Virus record (IMG/VR): IMGVR_UViG_3300034102_002082
Location: 62,001-126,000 of that record
DNA: 64,000 nt
DNA from: a virus
Reading direction: 5' to 3' (one strand)
Shown: positions 27,740 to 42,948 of the stretch, piece after piece
How the letters are laid out: each line of letters opens with the position of its first letter
Position numbering within the stretch: position 1 is the stretch's first letter
The notes under the pieces: model-generated
Databases searched by the model: none
What the model was told of the DNA's origin: nothing
Seen by the model: the letters and a program-made list of their open reading frames with translations, nothing else
Program-made: the position numbers and the translations under genes

Positions 27740-27768
27740 TCACTACACCAACTATCGTGATATGTCAA
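27740..27768 (-). promoter_or_regulatory. Promoter of the NAD salvage genes
   Basis: TTGACA (27768-27763), 17 nt, TAGTGA (27745-27740), 8 nt before the ATG. The -35 is perfect and the -10 weak. Confidence 0.45.
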
Positions 27769-28723
27769 GTGTATTTTTGATTTCTGTTGCGTACCATCCC
27801 TTTGATGGTCCACGCAAAACTCTTCTTCCTACTTTTCCGGCATTTGTCAATAATGTTGGGTGCTTTATTCCTCTCGATTTACAAAATTCAACTAAATTAC
27901 CATCAACAAAATACACATTGTCGTTGTTATCTACTATTTTCCATTTTTTTGCTTTTGGGTTTTTGCTTCCCTTAAATCTACCCAATTCCTTTAATTTATT
28001 TGATATATGAATTTTTTCTTCGGTTGTACATTTTCTTCCAAGAGTCGGGTGACCATTTTTAGCAAATGCTTCTCGTAACTTTCTTTTATGTTCCTCCGAA
28101 GAATTTCGTTTTATGATTTTATTTGTGTGTTCCGCTCTCTCTGCTTCCGATAATGTTGCATACCAGTTCTTTACTTTCTCAGAATGTAACTTTTTTTGTT
28201 CATCTGTCCACTTTTTTCCAAACATTGCATTTTTATCTCCGATATGGGATAGTCTTTGTAATTCTAGATGTTCCGGTGTTCGTTTATAATAATGTGCTGG
28301 ATGTAGTTCCCCTTTTAGTCCGTACATACTATTTTTTTCTCCTGATGTGTCTGGTCTAAAGTCCCCACCATCTGTTAGATTAGTTAACGGACCCATATTT
28401 AAATCTCGTCTTCCTATTTTCGATATAAGCTCAATCTCTATACGTTTTGACTCATCTACTGTCAAATTCTCGTGGATTTTTATTATTATCGGATCGACGC
28501 CATATGAAAGGATGCTTTTTATTCTATAGAACTTATGAAAGTTTCCTGTTCTTATTGATTTTTTTCTCTGTGCTTCTACTAGATGGTCTTTATATCTATT
28601 TCTTTTTCCTATACCAACATAAAATGGCTCATATTGGTATTTTAAATCTTGATATTCGAAATTTCCTGTTTTTGTCGGATCGAAATAAATATAAACGTAA
28701 TTGATATTGTCATTAATTGTCAT
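27752..28723 (-). CDS. GIY-YIG homing endonuclease between NAMPT and Nudix genes
   Basis: A 323-residue protein. The nuclease core is a variant: YVYIYFDP, then PFYVGIGKRNRYKDHL and a downstream RIEIELISKIG. NUMOD3-like DNA-binding motifs follow (GEKNSMYGLKGE, NAMFGKKWTDEQKKLHSEK, PTLGRKCTTEEKIH), and a C-terminal DNA-binding helix (NLVEFCKSRGIKHPTLL). It interrupts what is otherwise a compact NAD-related gene run on the same strand. The start is preceded by ATATTTATCATAT. Confidence 0.85.
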   Translation of the reverse strand: MTINDNINYVYIYFDPTKTGNFEYQDLKYQYEPFYVGIGKRNRYKDHLVEAQRKKSIRTGNFHKFYRIKSILSYGVDPIIIKIHENLTVDESKRIEIELISKIGRRDLNMGPLTNLTDGGDFRPDTSGEKNSMYGLKGELHPAHYYKRTPEHLELQRLSHIGDKNAMFGKKWTDEQKKLHSEKVKNWYATLSEAERAEHTNKIIKRNSSEEHKRKLREAFAKNGHPTLGRKCTTEEKIHISNKLKELGRFKGSKNPKAKKWKIVDNNDNVYFVDGNLVEFCKSRGIKHPTLLTNAGKVGRRVLRGPSKGWYATEIKNTLDISR

Positions 28724-31012: not shown

Positions 31013-31750
31013 TTAAAATAACTTTTTAGGTAACTTTTTTCCGCTTACATATTTCTGACAAAGTTGTTTTATAAAAGTTCTTTCGCTAGTATCACCACCA
31101 TCACCCGAGAAAGTTGAATAAACTACGTTTTCCAATACTTCACTCACAGAGAATCCATCGTCTAACATCTCACCCATTTCTACGGATGTTCTCGTTGATA
31201 TGTAGCTAGTTATTCTAGAGTCTGGTTTTTTAAATTCTGCGCGTATTTCATAGCTAATTTGTGATATGCATTTTATATCTTCTTTATCTAAATCGGGATA
31301 TTTAGAGAATAGTAAATCATACTCTTCTTCAGCATCCAAGGTTTCAATCTCAATCTTTACTGGAAATCTATCCATTAATGCTCTATCCATTATTCTGGTA
31401 GATGTGTATTCAGTTCCTATATTCGCCGTACTGATAAATGATACACCTTCAGCTACTTTTACCAATTCGGAATCTTCCTTTTCATCCAATCGAACGCATC
31501 TTTGGATTGGATCTAGTATAGGAAGAATTATATTCCAACCATCTGGATGGCATCTGCTCAATTCATCAAGCAATATTACTGCTCCTTCTGTTCGTATAGC
31601 CCGTATGAATGCAGACTCGTTAAATAGGGTTCCTTGGTCTTTAACAAGGTGAGTGTTACCAATCAGTACCGATCTAGGGTCTTGAGTACTTCCTAAGTTT
31701 ACACACATTAGATTTTTTTTTATTTTATATCGTATTTTAAATTTTTTCAT
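31013..31750 (-). CDS. MoxR/CobS-like AAA ATPase, C-terminal fragment (Walker B, sensor 1, Arg finger)
   Basis: A 245-residue fragment that begins just before the second conserved strand of a MoxR-type ATPase: MCVNLGSTQDPRSVLIG (15-31). Walker B is VILLDELSRCHP (58-69), sensor 1 FISTAN (105-110) and the arginine-finger segment DRALMDRFP (122-130). It has no Walker A. That motif is encoded at 32529-32777, on the other side of an antisense GIY-YIG gene. The ATG at 31750 follows a palindromic TATATTTATATAAATATA immediately, suggesting independent expression. It is coupled to the VWA gene. It may assemble with the N-fragment into one working ATPase, or be a decaying gene. Confidence 0.8.
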   Translation of the reverse strand: MKKFKIRYKIKKNLMCVNLGSTQDPRSVLIGNTHLVKDQGTLFNESAFIRAIRTEGAVILLDELSRCHPDGWNIILPILDPIQRCVRLDEKEDSELVKVAEGVSFISTANIGTEYTSTRIMDRALMDRFPVKIEIETLDAEEEYDLLFSKYPDLDKEDIKCISQISYEIRAEFKKPDSRITSYISTRTSVEMGEMLDDGFSVSEVLENVVYSTFSGDGGDTSERTFIKQLCQKYVSGKKLPKKLF

Positions 31751-31768
31751 TATATTTATATAAATATA
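31751..31768. promoter_or_regulatory. 18-nt perfect palindrome between divergent genes, candidate bidirectional promoter
   Basis: TATATTTATATAAATATA is identical to its reverse complement and contains the T4 late-promoter sequence TATAAATA in both directions. The leftward ATG of the ATPase fragment follows directly, and the rightward endonuclease ATG lies 14 nt away with an AGGA ribosome site. Confidence 0.5.
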
Positions 31769-31782
31769 GACTAGGAACGAAA

Positions 31783-32532
31783 ATGACACAATATATTATT
31801 TACGCTTTATTAGATACCTCTAGACCTATTAATTTGACGTTAGGTGAATTCATATTTGATTATGTTCCTATCTACATAGGAAGAGGAATTAGATTATCTA
31901 GACCATACACACATATTAGACGAGCATTAAATGGTGATACGAGAACAAAAATTAGAGCAAAGGTAAAGCAATTGGTAGACAGTGGTGTGGAAGTAAGACC
32001 CGTGTGTTTAAAAACCCAATTAAATAAAAAAGCCGCAGATGATATTGAAGTTGACTTAATATTTAAACTTAAAAGAGTAAATGAAGGTGGTACTTTATAT
32101 AACGTATGTGACGGTGGGGATGGTGGTGACACATTTACAAATAATATAAATAAAGAAGAGATTAGAAAGAAACTTATGGGGAGAATGCCATGGAACAAGG
32201 GACTGACAAAAAATACAGACGACGTTGTTCGTTCCGTATCAATAAAGAATAAGAATAATTTAATAAATGGGAATCTGGTTGCGCCATCGTTTAAGGGAAG
32301 AAAACATTCACAAGAAACAATAGATAAGTTGAGTAATATGCGAATTGGTGTAAAATTAGGAAAATATAAACCACGAGTAAGTCTTAAGAAATATATTTTA
32401 ACATCTCCCACTGGAGAGACTATAATATCAAATGGACAAAAAGAATTTTATAATTTACTTACTAATATGAATTTAAGTATATATAAATTAAAACTTGGTA
32501 AGCATGTCGGTTGGACATTAACTACCAACTAA
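31783..32532 (+). CDS. GIY-YIG homing endonuclease inserted antisense within a AAA ATPase gene
   Basis: A 249-residue protein with a GIY-YIG-type core (YIIYALLDT and VPIYIGRGIRLSRPYTHIRR), an ELI-like acidic region (DDIEVDLIFKL), a NUMOD3 motif (SFKGRKHSQETIDKLSNM) and a C-terminal DNA-binding part (ILTSPTGETIISNGQKEF). It is rightward while everything around it is leftward, and it sits between the Walker A and Walker B halves of one ATPase. Its stop overlaps the stop of the N-fragment by 4 nt. It is preceded by a good AGGA site. Confidence 0.85.
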   Translation: MTQYIIYALLDTSRPINLTLGEFIFDYVPIYIGRGIRLSRPYTHIRRALNGDTRTKIRAKVKQLVDSGVEVRPVCLKTQLNKKAADDIEVDLIFKLKRVNEGGTLYNVCDGGDGGDTFTNNINKEEIRKKLMGRMPWNKGLTKNTDDVVRSVSIKNKNNLINGNLVAPSFKGRKHSQETIDKLSNMRIGVKLGKYKPRVSLKKYILTSPTGETIISNGQKEFYNLLTNMNLSIYKLKLGKHVGWTLTTN

Positions 32533-32777
32533 ATTTCTGTTTCTTCTATTATTTCTATCGATTTATCTAATTTCATTTTCATAAGTTCATCTTCAGTAAC
32601 TATCTTCTCGTGAATTATATTACTGATAGCTTCCGCCGCTTTTATCGCTGCTAATGTTTTTCCAGATCCACTCATCCCATATAATAATACATTTTTTCCT
32701 TTATTGATTGCCCAAATAAGGTATTTCCAGTGTGCCTCATTTATTTTTAGATCTTTTGGTATCGGTGGAATTTTCAT
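32529..32777 (-). CDS. MoxR/CobS-like AAA ATPase, N-terminal fragment (Walker A)
   Basis: An 82-residue fragment carrying KGKNVLLYGMSGSGKTLAA (26-44), a standard Walker A for a MoxR/CobS-type ATPase, followed by a helix (IKAAEAISNII) and a charged tail (DELMKMKLDKSIEIIEETEI) that may be new sequence created by the insertion. The remaining motifs are in the 31013-31750 fragment. The ATG is preceded by ATATTTATACACTATAT and a terminator closes the upstream unit, so it seems to be transcribed separately. Confidence 0.75.
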   Translation of the reverse strand: MKIPPIPKDLKINEAHWKYLIWAINKGKNVLLYGMSGSGKTLAAIKAAEAISNIIHEKIVTEDELMKMKLDKSIEIIEETEI

Positions 32778-32795
32778 ATATAGTGTATAAATATA

Positions 32796-32827
32796 AAACC
32801 CGCTCCTTTTGAGAGCGGGTTTCTTTT
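32796..32827 (-). terminator. Terminator between the small frameshifted gene and the AAA N-fragment
   Basis: AAACCCGCTC and GAGCGGGTTT form a 10-bp GC-rich stem with a 7-nt loop. T-rich runs flank both sides (TTTTATATTTAT leftward, CTTTTTG rightward), so it could act in either direction. The genes before it run leftward. Confidence 0.88.
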
Positions 32828-34965: not shown

Positions 34966-35118
34966 TTACTTTTTTCTGGTCAAAATTTGTTCTATGTACG
35001 GAACGCATAATTTACATTTCGTCGCACATATCTTTAATTTCTGTAACTCCTCAACGGAGGCAGCTTGTTTTACTGCCTCCGTTAGAGAAATGTTATGACA
35101 TATACACTTGATGTCCAT
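34966..35118 (-). CDS. Bfd-like [2Fe-2S] mini-protein, 50 residues
   Basis: A 50-residue protein with the bacterioferritin-associated ferredoxin layout: CICHNIS (Cys5 and Cys7), a helix AVKQAASVEELQKL, then CKLC (Cys35 and Cys38). E. coli Bfd starts CLCNGIS and ends the site with CGKC, the same order. Such domains carry a [2Fe-2S] cluster and pass electrons. Its ATG overlaps the HNH gene stop (TGATG), and the ribonucleotide reductase lies just beyond, so an electron-transfer role for nucleotide reduction is conceivable, without direct evidence. Confidence 0.75.
   Translation of the reverse strand: MDIKCICHNISLTEAVKQAASVEELQKLKICATKCKLCVPYIEQILTRKK
35053..35083. other. 11-bp perfect hairpin inside the Bfd-like gene
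   Basis: AACGGAGGCAG and CTGCCTCCGTT pair perfectly around a 9-nt loop. It is GC-rich for this AT-rich region and lies in the coding sequence for residues about 12-22. No T run follows, so it is not a normal terminator. Confidence 0.6.
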
Positions 35119-35873
35119 CACTTAAAGTTTTCCGCTATCGATTTACAAAAGTCAATAAATTCAAGTTGGGTGAATTTATTTTTCATTATATTTACTTTAC
35201 TATGAACCCATTGCACATTTCCTTCTATATAACCAATAGATGAATCTATACGATCAAGTGAAGCAGTTGATGGTGATGTATTTGACTCTGGGAAATATAT
35301 GTCTCTTCCACTAAGGGCACATTTTTTATTTTGTAATATATATAAATCCCACACGTATTCAATCGTTATGGAAAATTCCATCTTTCTTTTTCTTGCTCCA
35401 TTCTTTATATTATTCCAGAAATCTCCAGAAATTTTTCCAACTCCTGTCCATTGTATATGTTTATCACCTTTGCTTCTATTGGTGAATGACTTAGTATTTC
35501 CTCTCAACAAATGGGTAGACGCTACAATTTTTTCAATACCTGTGTCTTTTTCTTTACAAAACCACATGGTATGTCCACTATTAGTTGTTGGTGCCCTACG
35601 TAAAACCAATAGATGACCAAATTCTGAACCAGATAGATCTTTGAATCTATCTGATTCTATTTTTAGCCCATCGAAATTAATATTTAGCTCAACCATTCTA
35701 GCAAATAATAATCTTCTCTTGTTATTTTCGTTTTTGATATTTAATTTTACCAGAATATTTCCTATATACTCACATTCTGGTAAAATTTTTTCTATATCAT
35801 TTTTAGATAAACTCCTTATTTTGTCACAAGGAGTTACATCTACCAAGTTTCTTTTATATCCTCTGTACTTCAT
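35118..35873 (-). CDS. HNH homing endonuclease next to ribonucleotide reductase
   Basis: A 251-residue protein with an HNH core: CALSGRDIYF followed by STASLDRIDSSIGYIEGN and VQWVHSKVNIMKN near residues 185-230. It lacks the first-position double His and uses the ASLDRID-type layout common in phage HNH enzymes. I use the ATG at 35873, which keeps the overlap out of most of the reductase tail. Phage endonucleases often target nrd genes, so the adjacent reductase gene is the likely site. Confidence 0.85.
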   Translation of the reverse strand: MKYRGYKRNLVDVTPCDKIRSLSKNDIEKILPECEYIGNILVKLNIKNENNKRRLLFARMVELNINFDGLKIESDRFKDLSGSEFGHLLVLRRAPTTNSGHTMWFCKEKDTGIEKIVASTHLLRGNTKSFTNRSKGDKHIQWTGVGKISGDFWNNIKNGARKRKMEFSITIEYVWDLYILQNKKCALSGRDIYFPESNTSPSTASLDRIDSSIGYIEGNVQWVHSKVNIMKNKFTQLEFIDFCKSIAENFK

Positions 35874-35881
35874 GTTGGTTA

Positions 35882-38215
35882 TCAAGCAAGAGTACATGCC
35901 CCACCAGCGCACGCTTGGCCCGCCAAGCTATCTGCATTGACAAATGTTTCGGTGTCCTCAATTGCCTGTGTCCAGTCAATCTCTTTATATTCTCGTTTTA
36001 GATCTAACCATAATTTGAACGAATATACGTGCTTTAAACAATGACACATCTTTCTCTTGTCACCATTGAAATATCTATCAGCGAACTGTATTGCTCGGCG
36101 AACCCAATCCTTTTTCCTGTAACTTGTGTTAAATATATCTTTATCTTGGTAAAAAATACTCAACTCAATACCATAATTTACGAGAGCAGAAGAAAATTCT
36201 TTCTCCGTCTTATAGTCTTTTCTGCGTGGTTTATTTGGTTGTGTTGGTTCATTGATATCACCATCAAGAACTTCACCGATACCATTTAAAGTATCACATG
36301 CTGCCCATAAGTTATTATTAAATATATAAAGACCATCAACGATTAATCCACTAGCAAGTAAGGCACCTTGACCATATTCTTCTACTAATTCCTTTTCATT
36401 AAGTACCGAAGTAAAAGGAGCTTGTGGATAATCTAAATCACCGGAAGCGGATAGAAGAGAAATACCAGCGAACCATTGTCTATTTGCATAGATATAATCA
36501 CGAACTTCGTCCCATTCATTATCCTTAACAGTGATAGTGTTAGATACGTTATGTCGAGTATTTGGTAGCAGACAGAGTTCTTTATTGGTACCAAATTCAA
36601 CCCAATTTTGTTGTGTTAGTCTAACTTTATTTAGTAGATCAACAGCACCAAGATTATTCTTAACTATCGCGCTCTTAGGAACTTCACATAGGAAAGAAAT
36701 GACATCATCTGTACCATTAGTTGACCATACCGATTTTTCCACTGCTAATGGATTTATCTTCTTGAAGTGTTGAACAGGAAATTCATTCTTATTTGCTTGT
36801 ACTCGACGAATATACCGCTTGGCGTGATGTGGGTGAATTCCGCTAGACGATGATAGGACGCAACTAGTTGACCCTGCTGGTTTAACGCAAGTAGTTCTTG
36901 CTGCTTGATTAATACCTATTAGGGCAGCTATTTTCTTATTTGTTTCGCGAATTAGTGTTGCTCCTTCTTTTTGTACTTCTGGATCGAGCAGGATATCTGG
37001 ATTATCCATTATACCGGTTATTGAACAGCCAAGTAACGCTTCTTTTTCTGTTATTTCTTGTGTTTCTTTGGCTAGATATTTAAACTTAGTATATCCAGCT
37101 TGCATTGTCCCGATAATGGCGGATGCTCTGCATGTTTCTAAGAATTTTTCTTTCGTATCGCAATATTTTCCGTTGATTTCTGTGAGATTACAAAATTGCC
37201 AACCGCTTCTTCCGTCAACAGTTTGTGGGTAAAGTCCGATCTCAACACATGGATTATATCCTATGTCTTCGCTATCACTAAATACAAAACCAGGTTCACC
37301 GAAAGCACGAGTAGATTCCATAATCTTATCGAATTCTGGTTTAGTTACTTTATCTTTTATTAGTAATACCGAATTATTTGACCGTCCACGTTGCGGATTT
37401 TTAATATACCAATCTCCAGTCTTAGCTGTCATCATTTCTTGGTCTTCCTTAGAAAATAAGCAAATGGTAGCTGATCTACGCACACCACCAGAAAGAACCG
37501 CATCTGATAGATGCATTATAATATCATAAACATCAATCGGTCTTAATGTTGTATGTCCACTACCGATTCTGTCTTCTATTAATTCTTCGATCTTTTTTAG
37601 TGAATTATTTAATCCAACAGAACCAGGTGCTTTAAATTGATCGGCGATCAATGAGCCTTCTGGTCTAATTTTTGAGAGATCAAATTCAACAGAATGTCCT
37701 TCATATTCGGGAAATACTCCCCCACCAACAAGATATGATGACATAATCGCAGCAATACAATCAGACCATCCTTCTATGCTGTCATCAGCAACAAAGGTTT
37801 TTACTCCTTTTACTCTTTTTTGTATATTCGGAAGTTTGGCTACATGTTTTGTTTGTACGGAGAATCCTACTCCGCAACCACAAAGAAGTAGATACATGGC
37901 TTCATTAAATGCAGCAGCACGATCAATATATCCATATGAACAATTAAAAACTTTGGCATTGTGCTTAAATATCGGTGCTCCACCGAATTGAAGGATTCTC
38001 TGCGCACCCAACACCCTCTTCTTTTTTACCATATCTTTGGCGAAATTAAATTCCTTTTCAAATTCTGGATTTTTTAGTGCCTCGGAATATTGCTCGGAAT
38101 GCATTTCGAATACTCGATCTGCCATTTCTGACCATACTTCTCTGCGTTTTTTTTCTTTATCGTATCTTCCGTAACGACTGAAAATAGTGTAATCTGATAG
38201 TGCTTGTAGTGACAT
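35882..38215 (-). CDS. nrdJ: Class II (adenosylcobalamin-dependent) ribonucleotide reductase
   Basis: A 777-residue monomeric-type reductase that makes deoxynucleotides with a coenzyme B12 radical. Features: FSRYGRYDKEKKRREVW (12-28), FNCSYG (90-95), GCGVGFSVQ (113-121), NPCVEIGLYP (321-330, the radical Cys and Glu) and the C-terminal redox pair CAGGAC (769-774), with the four-residue gap of the Lactobacillus type. No iron-dependent NrdB partner is present in the window. The HNH gene overlaps its 3' end on its downstream side. Confidence 0.93.
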   Translation of the reverse strand: MSLQALSDYTIFSRYGRYDKEKKRREVWSEMADRVFEMHSEQYSEALKNPEFEKEFNFAKDMVKKKRVLGAQRILQFGGAPIFKHNAKVFNCSYGYIDRAAAFNEAMYLLLCGCGVGFSVQTKHVAKLPNIQKRVKGVKTFVADDSIEGWSDCIAAIMSSYLVGGGVFPEYEGHSVEFDLSKIRPEGSLIADQFKAPGSVGLNNSLKKIEELIEDRIGSGHTTLRPIDVYDIIMHLSDAVLSGGVRRSATICLFSKEDQEMMTAKTGDWYIKNPQRGRSNNSVLLIKDKVTKPEFDKIMESTRAFGEPGFVFSDSEDIGYNPCVEIGLYPQTVDGRSGWQFCNLTEINGKYCDTKEKFLETCRASAIIGTMQAGYTKFKYLAKETQEITEKEALLGCSITGIMDNPDILLDPEVQKEGATLIRETNKKIAALIGINQAARTTCVKPAGSTSCVLSSSSGIHPHHAKRYIRRVQANKNEFPVQHFKKINPLAVEKSVWSTNGTDDVISFLCEVPKSAIVKNNLGAVDLLNKVRLTQQNWVEFGTNKELCLLPNTRHNVSNTITVKDNEWDEVRDYIYANRQWFAGISLLSASGDLDYPQAPFTSVLNEKELVEEYGQGALLASGLIVDGLYIFNNNLWAACDTLNGIGEVLDGDINEPTQPNKPRRKDYKTEKEFSSALVNYGIELSIFYQDKDIFNTSYRKKDWVRRAIQFADRYFNGDKRKMCHCLKHVYSFKLWLDLKREYKEIDWTQAIEDTETFVNADSLAGQACAGGACTLA

Positions 38216-39792: not shown

Positions 39793-40860
39793 TTATTTTG
39801 AATAATAATCCAAAATACCAAAACTTTCTCTGAGCCAATTACTTAACAATGGGAACTGATCATGTATTCCATCATAGGTAAACCTCTGTGTTATTTCTAT
39901 AATATTACATTTTCTAATTTCCATTTCTACTCTAGCAGATATTCCATGTTGGTGACATACGGCAAAATCTGGTTCTCTTAGCTGCATTAATTTGTAATTT
40001 CTTTCAACTATTTCCCATTCTGACAGAACATTCTCATATAGTTTGTATTTTCCGGAGGTGGCCTCCGCATGATCTTTCAAATATTCAACATTTAAAGTTT
40101 TCTCTTCCGATATTTGCGGAAAGCATTTTATGACAGTTTTTGCTCCTGCTCCTTTTATACCGTCGATATTGTCCGATGTATCACCATCAAGACACCGGAA
40201 TAGAACGAAGTTATGTGGGTGAATACCGTATTCGGAAACTACTTCGGATACACCATACAACTTCTTTTTTGTTGGACTCCACACACGTACCTGCTTATTT
40301 ACTAATTGTAGAAAATCTTTATCCGCGCTCATTATCGTTACATTATTTTCTGGTTTATTGAAAACTGTAGTAGCCAGATAAGCAATAGTATCGTCCGCTT
40401 CAATGTTATCTACTGAGATTAGTGTTATTGGTAAACAATGCAAGTAAGCAATAAATTTTGCTAATTGTTCCTTCATGCTCTTCTCTTCCATATCGGGGGT
40501 GTTAACCTCGGCATACATCCTATTTACACGAATACGGTTCTTTCTTCCGGATTTATAATCTGGATAGATTTGTTTTCTTCTCTTTGATCCACCAGCACCA
40601 TCAGCGACAACTATACATCTAGTTGGTTTTAATTCTCGTATAGCATATGCCAACGACTTTAAGCTACCAACTAGACCACCCGATAGGTTTCCGTTTTCGT
40701 TTGTGTTTGGAAATACTGAATAACATCTAATAAAAAGATTGAATAAATCGACTATCAAAACATCGGAGTTCAATGTTTTTTGTGGTCTATTCATTATTTC
40801 ATTTTTATCTAAGTTCTCGAACAATGAAAATAATCTTTTTTTGTTAATTGGTTCGTTCAT
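39793..40860 (-). CDS. rnh: FEN/RNase H-type 5' nuclease
   Basis: A 355-residue 5'-3' exonuclease of the T4 RNase H/FEN family, which removes RNA primers and flaps. Acidic metal sites are visible: LIVDLFNLFIRC (near 35-46), VADGAGGSKRRKQIYPDYK (84-102), SVDNIEADDTIAYLA (149-163), MSADKDFLQLV (176-186) and the helix-hairpin-helix GDTSDNIDGIKGAGAKT (near 212-228). The ATG at 40860 overlaps the stop of the terminase-like gene (ATGA), so a longer upstream start is unlikely. Confidence 0.88.
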   Translation of the reverse strand: MNEPINKKRLFSLFENLDKNEIMNRPQKTLNSDVLIVDLFNLFIRCYSVFPNTNENGNLSGGLVGSLKSLAYAIRELKPTRCIVVADGAGGSKRRKQIYPDYKSGRKNRIRVNRMYAEVNTPDMEEKSMKEQLAKFIAYLHCLPITLISVDNIEADDTIAYLATTVFNKPENNVTIMSADKDFLQLVNKQVRVWSPTKKKLYGVSEVVSEYGIHPHNFVLFRCLDGDTSDNIDGIKGAGAKTVIKCFPQISEEKTLNVEYLKDHAEATSGKYKLYENVLSEWEIVERNYKLMQLREPDFAVCHQHGISARVEMEIRKCNIIEITQRFTYDGIHDQFPLLSNWLRESFGILDYYSK

Positions 40861-41693
40861 ATTAATTCTCTCTCGACTGCATCTACTCCGATTTCTTTCA
40901 CTTTGTTTATTAACCATTTTATATCTCTACCAGGTACAGAATCCCACTTCACCTTCAATATATACCAATTCAATATATTTGACCAACTATAAATTCCAGA
41001 AGTACTACCCACAATAAATTGTGATCCTTTAGTATATAGACAAGGATATATGCATTCGATGATACTACTATTGATAAATTCACATTCGTCTATGAAAATA
41101 GTAGAAAAGCTTTTTCCACGGACACTAGAACCTTTAGACGAAACCGATATAAAATCTATAGAGTTTCCACTGTTAGTGGATATAAACGATCTATTTATCG
41201 TTCTAAATATATTTTTATCTACCAATGAACAATTGTCCAACATTTCATATATAATTTTTCTTATGTTTTCATTGGAATTAAGATTATGAGACATCACGAC
41301 AATTGATTGCTTTTCTGTGAATAGAAACTTCCAAACCAAGTATGCACATTGGATCGTAGTAAATCCTACCTGTCTAGGTTTTTTTACGAAAATTCTGCTT
41401 TCTTTTTGTGTGTTGTTGATGAAATCCTTTTGCCAATCATATAAAATAAAAGGAATACGACCACTTGATGGAGTGTTTATCGTTATATATTTTTCGATAA
41501 AATATATAGGATCTTCTTTACACATATCAATTTCGATTTCTTCCGGTGATGGCTTAACTAATGTTAAACCATATTGCGCCATTGATCTTATGCATCCAAT
41601 TTTTTCTATTAATGATTGATCGAATCTTTTAAGATCGAAGCTATTATCATATATTGACTGTAATACTTCTCGTATTTTTTCTTTATTTTCCAT
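40857..41693 (-). CDS. Terminase-like ATPase, short, with altered Walker A
   Basis: A 278-residue protein resembling the ATPase half of T4 gp17. It has the adenine-binding-type segment PFILYDWQKDFI (81-92), IFVKKPRQVGFTTIQ (101-115) where gp17 has a Walker A of the type RQxGKTT, a hydrophobic strand IVVMSHN, and Walker B STIFIDECEFI (197-207). The Lys of Walker A is Phe here (codon 41363-41361, TTT on the coding strand). The nuclease half is absent. It could be a degenerate paralogue with a new role in recombination or packaging control, since it lies between recA and the FEN nuclease. I chose the ATG at 41693, just past the recA stop. Confidence 0.65.
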   Translation of the reverse strand: MENKEKIREVLQSIYDNSFDLKRFDQSLIEKIGCIRSMAQYGLTLVKPSPEEIEIDMCKEDPIYFIEKYITINTPSSGRIPFILYDWQKDFINNTQKESRIFVKKPRQVGFTTIQCAYLVWKFLFTEKQSIVVMSHNLNSNENIRKIIYEMLDNCSLVDKNIFRTINRSFISTNSGNSIDFISVSSKGSSVRGKSFSTIFIDECEFINSSIIECIYPCLYTKGSQFIVGSTSGIYSWSNILNWYILKVKWDSVPGRDIKWLINKVKEIGVDAVERELI

Positions 41694-41697
41694 GGTA

Positions 41698-42948
41698 TTA
41701 ATCTTCGAAAGTTTCTGAAAATTCTGCATCGTCATTGCCATCTTGACTATCATATACAAATATTTTCTTTTTGCATATTTTCATATATAGGAAATCTTTT
41801 ATTTCTGGTCGATCTTGAAGAAGAGTTAAGAAGTTTTTTCTTTCAAATTGCACAACTTCCTTTACTGTTACTAGATCACCTTCTTTTGTGTCGAAAGTCT
41901 CATCAGTATAATCGAACTGGAAATTTTTCTCCTTCTTCAATGCTGCTCTTTCCAATTCTAATTGGACTTTTGTTTTCTTCTTTCCCGTGCTATCAGTTGT
42001 TTCAACTTTTGCGGTTTTGAAAACTTTATATTCTTGTAATCTTTCCAGCCAATTTCCATAATTGTCGATACCACTTCTGAAATATATATCAAATTCTGCT
42101 TTTCTGAATGGTGGCCCCATTCTATTTTTGACTACCTTAGCAATTGTTTTCATACCTATTGCTTCATTGTCTTTGTTTGTTATTTGTCCACTCTTTTGCA
42201 ATCTAATTCTTACTGATGCGTGAAATGGTAATGCCTTCCCACCAGGAGTTATCCACTTATCACCAAGACCAACGAAACCGATCTTTTCTCTCAACTGATT
42301 GGTACAAATAAATAGAATTCTTTGTGTTCCTATCAATCCTGTTATTTTTCTGAATGCCTTGGATAGCAAGTAAGCTTTTGCTGTACCGAATCCCTCTTTC
42401 GCGTATGACTGTTCTTGCTCATCCTTTGTAGTCATTGCGGCAATCGAATCTATTACTACTGTTACCAATTGATTCCCATTTCCTTCACGTAGCTTTGCTA
42501 TTAATTTTTCAATAGAATTAAAAATGTCTTCGACTGTATTAAGAGAAACAACTAACAATTCACTTACGTCAACTCCTATAGCAGTTAGGTATTCTTTAGA
42601 TAATGCGGTTTCTGTATCAAATAATATTGCAGTTCCTCCCTTTCTTTGTGTATCAGCTAAAGCGTGAGCAACTAGCAATGATTTTCCGCTGGCTTCTTCT
42701 CCGGAAATTTCTATAATTCTTCCTACGGGGAGACCACCATTTGGTCTATTGCTTATAGCTAAATCTAATTCGGAGTTACCTGTGCTAATCCAGTCAGTTA
42801 CATTGGATGGATCATCTTCCTTATCTAAGAAAAATGCCACCTTCCCTTGGTCAGTGACTGCCTTATTTATAACATCTACCAGTCCTGCTAGTAGATCAGA
42901 TTTTGACGTTCCGGTTTCTGCCTTAGTTGATTTTGTTGATTTTGCCAT
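41698..42948 (-). CDS. uvsX: RecA/UvsX-type recombinase
   Basis: A 416-residue strand-exchange protein. GRIIEISGEEASGKSLLVAH includes Walker A GEEASGKS (83-90); VVIDSIAAM is Walker B; LFICTNQLREKIG (near 211-223) and GGKALPFHASVRIRL follow the bacterial RecA pattern closely. The C-terminal 100 residues are charged and extended. It pairs with the gp32-like gene upstream, as in T4-type recombination-dependent replication. I chose the ATG at 42948 (MAKSTKSTK). Confidence 0.93.
   Translation of the reverse strand: MAKSTKSTKAETGTSKSDLLAGLVDVINKAVTDQGKVAFFLDKEDDPSNVTDWISTGNSELDLAISNRPNGGLPVGRIIEISGEEASGKSLLVAHALADTQRKGGTAILFDTETALSKEYLTAIGVDVSELLVVSLNTVEDIFNSIEKLIAKLREGNGNQLVTVVIDSIAAMTTKDEQEQSYAKEGFGTAKAYLLSKAFRKITGLIGTQRILFICTNQLREKIGFVGLGDKWITPGGKALPFHASVRIRLQKSGQITNKDNEAIGMKTIAKVVKNRMGPPFRKAEFDIYFRSGIDNYGNWLERLQEYKVFKTAKVETTDSTGKKKTKVQLELERAALKKEKNFQFDYTDETFDTKEGDLVTVKEVVQFERKNFLTLLQDRPEIKDFLYMKICKKKIFVYDSQDGNDDAEFSETFED

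Follow-up and report, generated by a model that had tools for sequence, protein, structure and literature searches.

An antisense GIY-YIG endonuclease gene separates Walker A from Walker B in a predicted MoxR-type AAA+ ATPase gene of a T4-like phage

The stretch of DNA analysed here (the window) comprises 64,000 nucleotides of the IMG/VR virus record IMGVR_UViG_3300034102_002082 and is contained in a contig of 129,856 bp. This contig harbors markers of a T4-like myovirus, namely a gp23-type capsid protein, a family B DNA polymerase, RIIA/RIIB, UvsX and a DnaB-type helicase. Within the window, an AAA+ ATPase gene is distributed over two open reading frames (ORFs), designated N-piece and C-piece, and a homing endonuclease gene is located exactly between them (Table 1). 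The coordinates of these three ORFs, known from an earlier reading of the DNA alone (the sequence-only reading), were all borne out when the sequence was read again. The N-piece and endonuclease ORFs overlap tail-to-tail by 4 nt at their stop codons, and the flanks of the endonuclease gene measure about 50 and 86 nt.

Table 1. Features of the split ATPase locus, in window coordinates.
Feature	Position	Strand	Remarks
N-piece of predicted MoxR-type AAA+ ATPase, 82 aa	32529..32777	-	N-terminal helix, beta1, Walker A GMSGSGKT, helix alpha1, new tail
N-piece conserved part, codons 1-53	32619..32777	-	profile positions 33-79
N-piece acidic C-terminal tail, 29 aa, IIHEKIVTEDELMKMKLDKSIEIIEETEI	32532..32618	-	no relative has the tail; coding-like codon usage
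GIY-YIG homing endonuclease gene, free-standing, 249 aa	31783..32532	+	antisense to ATPase
14-bp perfect palindrome TATTTATATAAATA	31753..31766	.	between divergent starts of endonuclease and C-piece
C-piece of ATPase, 245 aa	31013..31750	-	beta2 onward: Walker B, sensor 1, Arg finger, lid
C-piece basic N-terminal extension, 12 aa, MKKFKIRYKIKK	31715..31750	-	
Partner gene, 592 aa	29233..31011	-	HESCH metallopeptidase motif (aa 79), VWA MIDAS motif DASGS (aa 399)
Terminator-like hairpin, bidirectional	32795..32823	.	directly upstream of N-piece

The catalytic motifs of the ATPase are divided between the two pieces. Walker A (GMSGSGKT) is found in the N-piece, and Walker B (ILLDE), sensor 1 (TAN) and the Arg-finger segment (DRF) are found in the C-piece. 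Three queries, namely the C-piece by itself, a profile and a profile of the N-piece, were used to gather relatives from IMG/VR. This yielded 177 related loci with 126 distinct proteins, in all of which the ATPase is a single ORF (0 split). Against a family profile built from 69 of these intact relatives, the C-piece scored 359 bits (E 1.7e-111, positions 74-309) and the N-piece 46.5 bits (E 2.4e-16, positions 33-79), so that the homology of both pieces to the intact family is far beyond chance. Both halves also match phrog_249 consecutively, the N-piece at 123-151 and the C-piece at 151-336, and the C-piece matches AAA_5. L021, an intact relative, was modelled with AlphaFold (mean pLDDT 88), and a fold search with this model gave NorQ (TM 0.70/0.86), which has the VWA partner NorD, and CbbQ as the closest solved folds. 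All four motifs, the nearest folds and the adjacent VWA partner place the split gene, as a prediction, in the MoxR clade of AAA+ ATPases. Motifs and profiles thus agree with the sequence-only reading, in which a GIY-YIG gene on the opposite strand was proposed to divide an AAA+ gene of the MoxR/CobS type, leaving Walker A on one side and Walker B on the other. A redundant intact paralogue was ruled out, since the 129,856-bp contig contains no second MoxR gene.

The sequence-only reading had also considered the C-terminal half to be still coupled to its VWA partner, which is what we find: the ATG of the VWA gene abuts the stop codon of the C-piece, and both the HESCH and the DASGS motif are present. 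The partner is homologous to the VWA ORF adjoining the ATPase in LR756508.1, and the neighbours of the ATPase in two further loci (L003 and L015) are similar to it. An ORF with HESCH and DASGS was detected in 58 of 98 loci by a crude two-motif search, many of these loci being truncated. A MoxR-clade AAA+ protein next to a VWA protein with an N-terminal metallopeptidase is also the arrangement of the MoxR-vWA chaperone pair of group 2.2 jumbo phages, for which a role in virion assembly has been proposed (PMC7824862). Similarly, NorQ-NorD, CbbQ and CobS are MoxR-clade ATPases with an adjacent VWA protein. In all of these systems the ATPase is a single polypeptide, whereas it is in two pieces here, and a literature search found no split MoxR. 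The best relative is only about 60% identical to the C-piece, and therefore the phage has no close relative in the IMG/VR collection. Single-sequence searches of IMG/VR gave no close relative of the N-piece, the endonuclease or the VWA protein, and thus no sister phage was found.

The position of the break was defined by comparison with the intact family. The spacing between the Walker A GKT and the following (F/V)NLG motif is about 16-19 residues in all relatives. The two pieces cover profile positions 33-79 and 74-309 and so leave no family position uncovered at the junction. The conserved parts of both pieces were joined in a script solely to display the empty site. Read together, they score 413.6 bits with no gap at conserved positions, and they align across the junction with two extra residues, the same as in relatives with an 18-residue spacing. 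In the model of the intact relative L021, the break corresponds to residues 64-68, a loop between a helix (52-63) and a strand (69-73). The split site is thus the alpha1-beta2 loop, which links the Walker A helix to the strand that follows. Absence of conserved residues at the junction had been named in the sequence-only reading as a sign of decay, and by profile coverage and in the joined alignment none is missing. The endonuclease insertion has split the ATPase gene without loss of conserved positions at the junction.

The intruding ORF matches a PHROG homing endonuclease family (E 8.8e-8), and its match to Pfam PF22945 is sub-threshold (18.4 vs 27 bits). Its frame is open over the full length. 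The catalytic positions Y7, YIG at 31-33, R37/R40, E89 and N107 are common to this protein and the second GIY-YIG endonuclease of the phage, the two being 26% identical. Its nearest phage relatives are about 30% identical, and a profile search found only three relatives, with 25-30% identity. The second endonuclease, of the same type, is encoded at 27752-28723 (-), between a nicotinamide phosphoribosyltransferase gene and a NUDIX gene. In addition, an HNH/endonuclease VII-like gene is located at 35118-35912 (-). Its start overlaps the 3′ end of a ribonucleotide reductase gene, the ORF of which looks complete.

Both pieces carry terminal residues outside the family alignment. The N-piece extends 29 residues beyond it, with a net charge of -5. 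The codon usage of this tail (12.9 bits) exceeds that of more than 99.9% of open wrong-frame windows and lies at the 90th percentile of the real genes of the phage; because it resembles coding sequence in this respect, the tail looks translated. An origin as an ancestral loop insertion was ruled out, the loops of the relatives having at most about 19 residues, and the same applies to the end of another known gene, with no match in the contig or in 50,697 phage records. When the N-piece was modelled alone with AlphaFold, its conserved part adopted the expected fold (block pLDDT 73-85) and the tail was mostly unstructured (<50), so that this model is uninformative on the function of the tail. 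The 12-residue extension of the C-piece has a net charge of +7 and a perfect alternation of hydrophobic and charged residues across nine positions. A charge of +7 within 12 residues is rare among real 12-mers (9e-5) but is reached by 3% of composition-preserving shuffles, the DNA being rich in A. The charge is therefore partly a by-product of A-rich DNA. The alternation has a frequency of 0.2% in either control. The argument from charge was framed after the data had been seen.

Several phage enzymes provide a basis for comparison. In Aeromonas phage Aeh1, the arrangement nrdA-A / mobE / nrdA-B gives a split enzyme that is fully active, and split enzymes with such insertions are active in both Aeh1 and phage 25 (PMC2988022). 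The parallel with Aeh1 drawn in the sequence-only reading holds: in both cases a homing endonuclease gene cuts a conserved enzyme gene into two ORFs, without an intron in Aeh1 and with none recognised here, and each piece carries extra terminal residues of opposite charge. The Aeh1 tails are basic on NrdA-A (+4 in 29 aa) and acidic on NrdA-B (-9 in 26 aa), compared with -5/+7 here, and are reportedly essential for activity according to a 2011 study. There are also differences. The Aeh1 enzyme is a ribonucleotide reductase (RNR) and mobE is an HNH gene in the same orientation, whereas the enzyme here is an AAA+ ATPase and the GIY-YIG gene is antisense. Of these two enzymes, activity has been shown for that of Aeh1 only. 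In T4 39/60 (mobA) and Aeromonas phage 25 43A/43B (seg-like), too, a large enzyme is encoded in two pieces that flank an endonuclease gene or its remnant; these are other enzymes, and their endonuclease genes are co-oriented, unlike the antisense one here. In phage 25, it is uncertain that the endonuclease caused the split (PMC2988022). Opposite net charges at the C-terminal end of the first and the N-terminal end of the second fragment are found in Aeh1 NrdA (+4/-9), phage 25 gp43A/B (+4/-7), T4 gp39/gp60 (-2/+5) and the present ATPase, which in a small sample of four split enzymes chosen post hoc amounts to a hint.

Taken on its sequence features, the split enzyme is most likely a case of genes in pieces. 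The reading we prefer, with a probability of roughly 0.6, is that a MoxR-type AAA+ ATPase was split by a GIY-YIG insertion, and that its pieces reassemble and work with the metallopeptidase-VWA partner. The endonuclease gene was inserted in antisense direction into the codons of the alpha1-beta2 loop, leaving two ORFs which are presumably translated separately. The products could then assemble non-covalently into one AAA+ subunit, in which the sheet of the C-piece takes up beta1, Walker A and alpha1 from the N-piece, and the acidic tail of the N-piece and the basic strand-like extension of the C-piece may act as a complementary clamp. By the literature on such pairs, the reassembled ATPase and its partner would represent a MoxR-VWA chaperone pair, probably acting in virion assembly. 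Function is favoured by the open frames of both pieces, the presence of all catalytic motifs, the clean junction and the coding-like tail. On the other side, a short beta1-P-loop-alpha1 unit would have to fit itself into the interior of a sheet, a demanding step that counts against reassembly.

The main rival, which we regard as unlikely while giving it considerable weight, is recent inactivation: the phage could do without its MoxR gene, the insertion destroyed it, and the two ORFs are remnants on which decay has yet to act. The insertion may indeed be young, as the endonuclease ORF is intact, and the 177 loci offer no close relative with the split for a test of selection. Furthermore, an Arg that is invariant in 69 of 69 relatives is replaced by Trp in the N-piece, and this part is somewhat more diverged than the C-part predicts (rank 6 of 127). 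However, the deficit of the N-part is equal or larger in several intact deep lineages (L030, L015, L069, L128, L152), so that it does not separate function from decay. In the C-piece, 14 of 98 conserved positions differ, and comparable numbers are seen in deep lineages with an intact gene, L015 among them. Open frames with a complete set of motifs and a junction that keeps every conserved position also speak against inactivation, and a coding-like tail would be unexpected in freshly imported non-coding DNA. Alternatively, the C-piece alone might persist and partner the VWA protein independently of nucleotide, the N-piece being a by-product. The C-piece still adjoins the VWA gene and, by homology to NorQ, has the lid and the ring-contact surfaces; yet the N-piece has retained a perfect Walker A with flanking family residues in addition to its coding-like tail, and we consider this alternative highly improbable.

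A different kind of explanation is that the interruption is removed, either as a group I/II intron carrying an antisense endonuclease ORF or through a split intein, and a single protein is restored. In-frame stops are usual in introns, some of which also contain antisense ORFs; group I introns with antisense endonuclease ORFs exist in nuclear rDNA. For this reason, the argument of the sequence-only reading that an intron is unlikely because the endonuclease is antisense and both halves have stops is invalid. There are other grounds for doubting an intron. At the locus, neither strand matched an Rfam intron family at E<=10, so that no ribozyme core was recognised on the ATPase strand, and only about 136 nt (86 + 50) lie outside the endonuclease ORF, which is below the size of a group I core unless the core overlaps the ORF. 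Both points disfavour a group I intron. An informative control is provided by Pseudomonas phages ZC03/ZC08, in which an ATPase-domain gene has been described as disrupted by an endonuclease (PMC5418858). As in the present case, the AAA+ gene of an AAA-VWA pair is interrupted between Walker A and Walker B. In ZC03 (L103, 1498-3441), the intruder is an HNH (I-HmuI-like) gene which is co-oriented, whereas the GIY-YIG gene here is antisense, and the ATPase belongs to a different AAA+ subfamily (3 bits to the family profile used here). The same Rfam scan returned a sub-threshold group I match in ZC03 (25 bits, E 7e-4). Because of this match and an exact empty site in another locus (L105), the ZC03 gene is probably spliced, not split. 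It lends the removal of the interruption some plausibility here, and at the same time demonstrates that the tool responds to a probable intron of this kind. A split intein is rejected, since the added ends of 29 and about 12 aa are too short; in addition, no intein profile matched and neither piece has intein-like ends. The tail on the N side, moreover, looks protein-coding. Altogether, we judge removal of the interruption to be quite improbable.

Returning to non-covalent reassembly, its more specific form would be that a separate small protein contributes the P-loop (beta1-Walker A-alpha1) in trans, and that strand-like tails of opposite charge, acquired with the insertion, keep it in the core, as an instance of recurrent tail-mediated repair of gene fission. 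We put this forward tentatively, at less than even odds. If true, such repair would be no one-off but would recur in Aeh1, possibly in phage 25 and T4, and in this MoxR chaperone. To our knowledge, only a handful of phage enzymes have withstood division by a mobile endonuclease, and non-covalent reassembly would be put to a severe test by a break within the nucleotide-binding core of an AAA+ protein. If the tails work as in Aeh1, the case would support a general route for neutralising selfish insertions and for creating multi-subunit enzymes. The locus is a ready-made split AAA+ system for testing.

With regard to expression, the suggestion in the sequence-only reading that each half has its own promoter-like motif did not withstand a comparison with background. 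Sigma-70-like sites occur at background frequency (13 found vs 12.3 expected), and TATAAATA is only weakly enriched in the window (22 vs 13.5 +/- 4.1). The palindrome TATTTATATAAATA could be read as a T4-late-like TATAAATA box on both strands, serving the endonuclease and the C-piece. As a T4-type late promoter, it would start transcription toward the C-piece near or after the ATG of the C-piece. Since the sole terminator-like hairpin is located upstream of the N-piece, one minus-strand message could span the N-piece, the antisense endonuclease, the C-piece and the VWA gene. A clear Shine-Dalgarno sequence is missing before the C-piece, as it is before most genes here.

Two further observations go beyond the split locus. 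A 298-aa ORF for a terminase-like ATPase is located at 40857-41753 (-), between uvsX and a 5′-3′ exonuclease gene, and a longer terminase-like gene exists elsewhere in the contig (G000:C1:53961-55088). Instead of a Shine-Dalgarno-like motif, A/T-rich sequence precedes the starts of most genes of the window, which may give a hint to the host group, e.g. Bacteroidota.
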